A DNA stretch of 34,745 nt from Gemmatimonadota bacterium. Its GTDB lineage: Bacteria; Gemmatimonadota; Gemmatimonadetes; Longimicrobiales; RSA9. The notes beneath the pieces are model-generated. The model saw nothing but the letters and a program-made list of their open reading frames with translations, searched no databases and had not been told where the DNA came from. The stretch spans positions 1 to 34,745 of the forward strand of contig JACQVE010000256.1 in NCBI GenBank assembly GCA_016209965.1, written 5' to 3'. This document shows positions 32,802 to 33,581 of the stretch, one piece after another (the first letter of the stretch is position 1; each line of letters starts with the position of its first letter). The position numbers and the translations under genes are program-made.

Positions 32802-32825
32802 GCTAGGGCAAGGGCCAGCCCTAGC
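32802..32825 (-). repeat. GC-rich inverted repeat over the OsmC stop codon
   Basis: GCTAGGGC (32802-32809) and GCCCTAGC (32818-32825) form a perfect 8-bp inverted repeat with an 8-nt loop, spanning the TAG stop. No T-run follows on the minus strand, so it is a weak terminator candidate or an RNA-stabilising 3' hairpin. Confidence 0.6.
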
Positions 32826-33285
32826 CCTCCTCGGCGATTTCCGCCTGCCAGCCGACCTCCACAGCCCCGCGCAGGCTCTGCGCCGTCGGGCACTTCTCCT
32901 GGTGCCGCGCCAACGCCCGCTCCACCACCTCCCGGCTCCCGGCCGGAACGCGCAGCACGTACTTCAGGTGGATGCGCGTCAGCACGGGCATGCTCTCGCG
33001 CAGCTCGTTCACGCCCTCGGCCTCCGCCCGAATCGCCTCGGCTGGCAGCTTGATCCCGCGCACCTCCAGTGCGCCGTTCAGGGTGCCCAGCATTCAGGCG
33101 CCGGTGGCGGCGACCACGTAGTCCACGGGGAGCGGCAGGTCCGGCTCGCCCCCCAGCTTGTAGTGCAGCTTGATGGGGCCGTGTACGCCAAACTCGACCG
33201 TGGCGCCCGACTCCAGGGTGGCGCGGCGGTGCACGCCCCGGACTTTCTCGATCCGCACCCGCGCGCGGTAGAACGGCTCGCTCAT
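32821..33285 (-). CDS. OsmC-family peroxidase-like selenoprotein (in-frame TGA read as selenocysteine)
   Basis: 154 aa if the TGA at 33096-33094 is read as selenocysteine (Sec64). The start ATG 33285 has GGAG 7 nt upstream. Both halves are in one frame, and together they make one OsmC/Ohr-type protein: LHYKLGGEPDLPLPVDYVV before the TGA, and LGTLNGALEVRGI after it. The family's reactive cysteine follows a (L/T)G(A/G) turn at exactly this codon (AATGA-U-MLGTL). The second family cysteine is present, Cys132 in HQEKCPTAQSL. OsmC-type proteins reduce organic hydroperoxides; OsmC-like selenoproteins have been described, to my recollection. A SECIS-like hairpin follows the TGA. The alternative is two split ORFs or a Cys-to-stop change. 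The start overlaps the upstream gene as ATGA. Selenocysteine genes (selA, selB, selC, selD) are not in this window. Confidence 0.75.
33058..33074 (-). promoter_or_regulatory. SECIS-like hairpin downstream of the OsmC TGA
   Basis: On the minus strand GCGCAC (33074-33069), loop TGGAG (33068-33064) and GTGCGC (33063-33058) form a perfect 6-bp stem. The loop begins 25 nt after the TGA, inside the 16-37 nt window of bacterial SECIS models. The second loop base is G, as those models require. A CCC/GGG lower pairing is possible with an asymmetric bulge. Confidence 0.65.
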
Positions 33286-33521
33286 TTCTGCTCTCCGTTT
33301 TGACTGGCCGGATCGACCGGCGTGTCGGCTCGGCTCGCCGTCGACGCTTCGTACCCGCGGCAGCGCAGCACGGGCAGCCTCGGGTAACGGGGGAAGGCCG
33401 GGTCGAAACGCGAGCGCTCGCACAGGAAGAAGTGCGAACCGCGCCGGTTCCGGATCACGCGGCCGTGCCGGCACATCGCGCACAGACCGGGCGCCTCCGC
33501 TTTCACTGGAAAATCGTTCAT
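33282..33521 (-). CDS. Small four-cysteine protein of unknown function
   Basis: 79 aa from ATG 33521 (MNDFPVKAEAP). Cysteines lie in CAMCRHG, LCERS and LRCRGYE, a C-x2-C...C...C arrangement that suggests a zinc or metal site. The FDPAFPRYPRLPVL segment is rich in proline and aromatic residues. I recall similar uncharacterised small proteins but no named function. Its TGA overlaps the OsmC start (ATGA), so it is translationally coupled to the selenoprotein candidate. The 5' end of the gene is part of a 37-nt duplication shared with the end of pgeF. Confidence 0.7.
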   Translation of the reverse strand: MNDFPVKAEAPGLCAMCRHGRVIRNRRGSHFFLCERSRFDPAFPRYPRLPVLRCRGYEASTASRADTPVDPASQNGEQK

Positions 33522-33581
33522 CGCAGGTGAAATGATCCTGCCTGGCACACCGCGCACAGACCGGGGCGCCTCCGCTTTCAC
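33470..33581. repeat. Pair of 37/38-nt direct repeats, 74 nt apart
   Basis: Copy 1 is 33470-33506 and copy 2 is 33544-33581, differing by one substitution (T/C) and one extra G. Copy 1 encodes the KAEAPGLCAMC part of the small Cys protein. Copy 2, shifted by the indel, covers the last codons and stop of pgeF and the spacer after it. This looks like a local tandem duplication. Confidence 0.85.

Follow-up and report, generated by a model that had tools for sequence, protein, structure and literature searches.

An OsmC-like gene with an in-frame TGA and a downstream hairpin

The window, by which we mean the whole 34,745-nt stretch of Gemmatimonadota DNA analysed here, carries on its minus strand an OsmC-like gene with one in-frame TGA (Table 1). 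Its product matched the OsmC family PF02566 with 52.9 bits (cut-off 27.5). An AlphaFold2 model calculated with Cys in place of the TGA residue reached a mean pLDDT of 97.3 and was confident through the site, and the solved structures nearest to it were OsmC/Ohr proteins. Three positions, C/U63, C131 and P132 (numbering of protein P0001), were common to all 65 aligned proteins. OsmC/Ohr proteins are organic hydroperoxide peroxidases that act via a Cys pair, and because they do so, the predicted Sec-Cys pair is likely to form the active site, with C131 in the part of redox partner that we take over from these enzymes. Immediately upstream, a Cys-rich open reading frame of 99 residues (window positions 33282-33581, minus strand) ends in a stop codon that overlaps the ATG of the OsmC gene (ATGA), and in 6 of 30 other loci (L013, L015, L020, L033, L035 and L040) a sequence related to its core was located upstream of the OsmC gene.

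Table 1. Features of the OsmC-like gene in the window (families A and B are defined in the text)
Feature	Position	Strand	Evidence
OsmC-like selenoprotein gene (predicted), ATG to TAG, one in-frame TGA	32821..33285	-	PF02566, AlphaFold2, nearest folds
Predicted selenocysteine codon (in-frame TGA) where OsmC proteins have their first catalytic Cys	33094..33096	-	TGA in 91/91 A and 40/40 B genes; Cys codon in 18 distant homologues
TGC codon of C131 (P0001), the second catalytic Cys and predicted redox partner of Sec	32890..32892	-	Invariant in 65 aligned proteins
Putative SECIS stem, 5' arm GCGCAC	33069..33074	-	Pairing kept in 91/91; two-sided changes at columns 26/36 and 27/35
Putative SECIS apical loop UGGAG (U-GGA-G; pattern N1-GGN-N2)	33064..33068	-	UGGAG 73, UGGAA 17, UGGAU 1 of 91
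Putative SECIS stem, 3' arm GUGCGC	33058..33063	-	Pairing and covariation among orthologues

Direct reading of the minus strand placed the TGA at 33096-33094, followed by a 19-nt spacer (33093-33075) and the hairpin GCGCAC-UGGAG-GUGCGC (33074-33058). The initial annotation of this DNA had described a perfect 6-bp stem closed by a 5-nt loop with G at loop position 2, all of which we could read in the sequence, and position 3 is a G as well. It had further placed the structure 25 nt after the TGA, a figure that is right for the loop and wrong for the stem, which begins after 19 nt; the loop distance is the relevant measure, since the bacterial SECIS model uses the interval from UGA to loop. The hairpin is contained within the coding frame, where its codons read G-A-L-E-V-R.

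The hairpin in a single sequence

As a chance expectation, we counted Watson-Crick hairpins of at least 6 bp with a loop of 3-9 nt, a G in the first two loop positions and a spacing of 16-37 nt. Of the 69,350 positions of the window, 3,399 (4.9%) were followed by a comparable hairpin, as were 24 of its 650 TGA triplets (3.7%). Such a hairpin also arose in 153 of 20,000 synonymous randomisations drawn with the codon usage of nusA and in 362 of 20,000 drawn with that of the OsmC genes. RNA folding was among the checks suggested in the initial annotation. For 54 nt folded from 3 nt upstream of the TGA, the z-score was -0.88, with 41 of 200 shuffles at least as stable, and the minimum free energy (MFE) form was a different structure; folds begun at +4 or later, as well as the fold from the TGA to +54, contained the hairpin. 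The alternative MFE structure was rejected upon comparison with relatives, as only 79.2% of its cells paired and its covariation score equalled that of its shuffles. Because chance hairpins are fairly common and the 54-nt fold is unremarkable, the single sequence is not enough to establish the element. The hairpin barely exceeds chance in the lone sequence and far exceeds it across relatives. The annotation's reading of the hairpin as a SECIS element that favours recoding is supported by the comparison among relatives; taken as independent support from the single sequence, it was weak given the z-score and the 4.9% background.

Conservation and covariation among orthologues

A protein search of 395 genomes of the same phylum returned matches in 155. 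Family A was assembled from 90 of the 91 places listed at E <= 7.4e-47, together with locus L040, giving 91 orthologues; G392:C571, which lies at a contig end, and the fragment G392:C650 were left out. L040 (66% identical) came from a scan of other genome contigs, which yielded a second locus, the distant Cys homologue L041; the latter, with 3 of 6 positions able to pair, was dropped from the set before counting.

The TGA was found at one shared place in all 91 orthologues examined, and all six base pairs were kept in each of them. The stem read GCGCAC/GTGCGC in 77 genes, GCGCGC/GCGCGC in 11 and GCGTGC/GCACGC in one, the remaining two containing one wobble pair. Position 2 of the loop was G and the loop contained GG in 91/91. 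The outer loop bases N1 and N2 corresponded to U-GGA-G in 73 genes and to U-GGA-A in 17, and pairing between them was impossible in 1 of 91 (UGGAU). The base just below the stem was likewise G in every gene. When the orthologues were folded from +1 to +48, the hairpin was part of the MFE structure in 89 of 91, and in 91 of 91 when folding started at +10, +13 or +16. The folding energy was -9.7 kcal/mol for the 17-mer of the window and -7.8 kcal/mol or lower in all 91 orthologues.

The initial annotation had named a lack of covariation in relatives as grounds for refuting its reading; compensatory changes were in fact present at two pairs, without a single broken cell among 74 distinct rows: 444 of 444 cells paired, and two pairs, accounting for 13 cells, changed on both sides. 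None of 500 shuffles matched the paired percentage, the number of two-sided cells or the covariation score, and 3 of 500 matched the number of pairs. As a control, sliding the partners by 1-3 columns abolished every two-sided change and left at most 69.1% of cells paired. Further pair types were not in excess over shuffles among the 74 rows (4 vs 4.9). RNAalifold returned the same hairpin from the alignment, adding a U-G/U-A closing pair and a weak outer pair, such that the apical loop comprises 5 nt, or 3 nt if the U-G closing is counted. A further C-G pair below the stem, which leaves a G bulged (columns 21, 22 and 40), held in family A; we do not claim it, because among the 40 family B genes column 21 is occupied by A in 22 and by G in 6. 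In a tree from which the stem codons had been excluded, at least eight changes fell on pair 5 (seven of these in family A) and at least three on pair 4; the five exceptional family B genes described below contribute their state to these whole-tree counts. Contrasts across well-supported branches agreed in 3/3 cases for pair 5 and 2/2 for pair 4, which is too few for significance (sign test p = 0.25 and 0.5). The covariation thus rests on few independent events.

Codon usage within the stem

The codons of the stem were nearly fixed among 88 distinct genes, with GGC in 87/88, CTG in 88/88, GTG in 76/76 Val codons, CGC in 87/88 and GCA in 76/87 Ala codons. Identical amino acids outside the stem behaved differently. 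Gly codon 7 was GGC in 87/88 genes, whereas Gly codon 3 was spread over four codons, with an effective number of 3.34; likewise, Ala codon 8 was GCA in 76/87, compared to only 6/87 for the Ala at position -5. Thr codon 4 had an effective number of 3.58, and most other codons had values of about 1.6-2.9. Low values were seen outside the stem too, namely at Leu codon 5, Gly 13, Pro 15 and Ser 22 (1.15-1.36). Changes in base pairs were coupled to changes in residues, as Ala GCA occurred with Val GTG, Ala GCG with Ala GCG, and Val GTG with Ala GCA. The compensatory changes hence give rise to the protein variants ALEVR, ALEAR and VLEAR, and a V..V combination was found in none of the 131 A and B genes.

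A second family and distant Cys homologues

Among the matches listed, at least 58 places belonged to a paralogous family B, 40 of which were examined. These genes were 33-47% identical to the query, carried the TGA in 40/40 cases and kept the hairpin in 35/40 (GCGCGC/GCGCGC in 23, GCGTGC/GCACGC in 8 and GCGCGC/GCGCGT in 4). The five exceptions (L102, L103, L104, L106 and L107) are related genes that retained the TGA and lacked the standard hairpin; pairing was possible at one or two of the six positions. Instead, they contained GGGC-GGA-GCCC, the loop of which is situated 18 nt after the UGA and thus 8 nt nearer to it than the standard loop. This displaced hairpin was present in the MFE structure of a 32-nt stretch in four of the five genes and showed no covariation, the five copies being near-identical here.

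Searching for more distant homologues gave 23 loci, of which L198 was dropped as the site was not covered. The four homologues with TGA (L178-L181) all possessed the standard hairpin, and it was seen in none of the 18 Cys-codon homologues, where 0 to 3 of 6 positions could pair. The hairpin is therefore associated with TGA and not with the Cys homologues, which serve as a distant control because they are only 23-35% identical; the matches listed included no close orthologues of family A with a Cys codon, which would have made a sharper control. One Cys homologue, L188, had an 8-bp hairpin in another register, its loop 26 nt after the Cys codon, which is about what the 4.9% background leads one to expect, and several others had 5-bp hairpins elsewhere within the spacing range. 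A later one-family search yielded 30 loci, 16 already seen and 14 new (three A and 11 B genes), and all six pairs were kept in 14/14. The 11 new B genes weigh little, because ten or so of them are near-identical in the stretch, and the family A locus L232 represents another VLEAR case. In the family B locus L221, the loop reads GGGAA and the Leu codon CTG, present in all of the 91 A and 40 B genes first examined, is replaced by CGG.

Selenocysteine machinery and selD

The genome of the window encodes the components expected for selenocysteine insertion: a tRNA-Sec (71.5 bits), SelB (366.6 bits) including the winged-helix domains PF09106 and PF09107, SelD (390 bits; L159, C99:3742-4668), and SelA as an N-terminal domain part at a contig end. 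The selD gene contains one in-frame TGA, followed by UGACGCAG-GUC-CUGCGUCA. These sequences form a perfect hairpin with a stem of 7-8 bp and a 5-nt (or 3-nt) loop GGUCC located 32 nt after the UGA. SelD of this genome is itself a predicted selenoprotein with its own GU-loop SECIS element. Across the selD loci of this genome and its relatives, TGA was present in 17/20, and all 17 had a hairpin there with a stem of 5 bp or more. Formate dehydrogenase was considered as a further gene with a SECIS element and rejected, since the match above cut-off was without an internal stop.

Across the phylum, tRNA-Sec was detected in 87 of 90 genomes with family A compared to 192 of 305 without it (Fisher p = 7e-12, with kinship ignored and counts made by eye). 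The exceptions G097, G159 and G209 are all draft assemblies. Repeating the tRNA-Sec search in these three returned nothing above cut-off for G159 and G209, and for G097 a borderline match of 47.8 bits (cut-off 47) that may be another tRNA.

Comparison with known SECIS elements and OsmC selenoproteins

The published bacterial SECIS model, as given in section 5 of PMC13188914, describes a loop of 3-9 nt separated from the UGA by 16-37 nt, an upper stem of 4-16 bp, and an energy of -7.5 kcal/mol or below. It also describes a G in the first two loop positions, mostly as N1-G[G/U]-N-N2 with N1-N2 pairing. The OsmC hairpin agrees in all these respects, with a loop of 5 nt (or 3), a stem of 6 bp, a distance of 25 nt, an energy of -9.7 kcal/mol and the loop G; N1 and N2 are unpaired in one of 91 genes. 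It further shares an in-frame UGA at the catalytic Cys position, a genome with Sec machinery (SelA as an N-terminal part), and conserved pairing with compensatory change, of which few independent events fall on supported branches. None of the listed constraints is violated. Less similarity exists to the E. coli type, for which PMC8704476 describes a bulged U in the stem and an unpaired adjacent G-U in the loop. A short hairpin soon after the UGA and a G in the loop are shared; in contrast, the OsmC stem is perfect and its loop has GG instead of GU in 91/91. The selD hairpin of the same genome has the loop GU and likewise lacks the bulged U. Compared to the OsmC hairpin, it also combines TGA with a perfect stem, at a longer distance (32 nt) and with a longer stem. 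The initial annotation had remarked on the missing bulged U. Its absence is real, yet it does not set the hairpin apart from bacterial SECIS elements in general, because the consensus, as set out in section 5 of PMC13188914, does not list one.

Selenoproteins of the OsmC-like type were already described in the Sargasso Sea study (PMC1088965). Those proteins and the NCBIfam model NF041052 (OsmC-related (seleno)protein) likewise represent OsmC-like sequences in which Sec occupies the catalytic Cys position and a SECIS element is predicted. The gene of the window reached 30.4 bits against NF041052, far below the cut-off of 95, and relatives from both families scored 17-24 bits in 7/7 cases. The published motif is UxxT according to two reviews, compared to U-[LM]-L-G-T in 90/91 of family A and U-[LM]-x-G-T in family B. 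Rfam gave nothing at gathering score in the window, with one chance microRNA match (E = 2) in the hairpin region. Among the open-access papers listed and in passages of PMC1088965, PMC13188914, PMC9312934, PMC12013277 and PMC8704476, we found no account of OsmC selenoproteins in Gemmatimonadota.

Interpretation

Since its pairing has been maintained through matched substitutions in both arms of the stem, the hairpin is very probably a signal for selenocysteine insertion, and we are confident that it acts as a functional bacterial SECIS element directing selenocysteine to the UGA. One could instead suppose that only the protein is under constraint, GALEVR being needed by the helix after the catalytic residue and the palindrome reflecting codon preference in a G+C-rich genome. 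The stretch does follow the catalytic residue, the 65 aligned proteins do not vary at G70, L72 and R75 (P0001 numbering), and hairpins arise by chance fairly commonly at this composition. A purely protein-level constraint would, however, leave unexplained that synonymous third positions are frozen throughout the stem (even if a few single codons outside are also low), that GCA dominates in the stem and is scarce for Ala elsewhere in the gene, that Ala/Val replacements occur in matched pairs preserving the pairing, with V..V absent from 131 genes, and that the hairpin is missing from all 18 Cys homologues. We thus consider this explanation very unlikely. A similarly small probability applies to a recoding or pausing hairpin that works without SelB, the UGA being decoded by a near-cognate species, for example tRNA-Trp. 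A stable hairpin downstream of a stop codon is able to promote readthrough, and the geometry departs from the E. coli SelB site in the bulge and the loop U. Against this, the TGA falls exactly at the catalytic Cys, the genome has the Sec gene set, the gene co-occurs with tRNA-Sec, SelD of the same genome shows the same arrangement, and the loop fits the SECIS pattern published in PMC13188914.

Two further explanations, both of which we regard as extremely unlikely, concern the TGA codon itself. TGA is common as a stop in the window, and the codon might be a true stop, with the downstream frame a remnant and the hairpin a terminator or a product of chance. However, similarity to the query is as high after the TGA residue as before it (59.8% vs 61.4% mean identity, 44 aligned family A proteins), the TGA recurs at the same place in all orthologues examined, no T run follows the stem, and the AlphaFold2 model is confident through the site. 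Conversely, UGA might be reassigned to an ordinary amino acid genome-wide, a reading in favour of which we found nothing. TGA is not reassigned, because it ends 12 of the 21 long stop-to-stop frames of the window, including nusA; moreover, the UGA position aligns with Cys, and the Sec machinery is present.

According to the SECIS reading, SelB would bind the hairpin and selenocysteine would be inserted at the UGA, whereupon the ribosome would melt the hairpin and continue through it as G-A-L-E-V-R. Judging from the related enzymes, the selenocysteine would be the peroxidatic residue of an OsmC/Ohr-type thiol peroxidase, paired with the Cys encoded at 32892-32890. In this way, a weak hint in a single sequence became, by comparison, a well-supported SECIS element, and two widespread OsmC-like selenoprotein families, far under the cut-off of the standard NCBIfam model, are added. 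A broader view, for and against which we see about equal grounds, is that two phylum-wide selenoprotein families exist beyond the reach of that model in which the SECIS element steers protein evolution, the matched switches among A..V, A..A and V..A being imposed by the need to keep the stem paired. Within family B, one clade would then have exchanged its hairpin for GGGC-GGA-GCCC, such that a SECIS element could be re-made at a new place within one gene family. The loci also constitute a large natural data set for SelB recognition, as GG-loop (OsmC) and GU-loop (SelD) hairpins, both without the bulged U of E. coli, coexist in one genome. As to the three selD loci with a Cys codon, one of which (L177) is only loosely related, two have no hairpin at the site, and L164 retains a 6-bp relic of the SECIS element, as if Sec had been lost recently.
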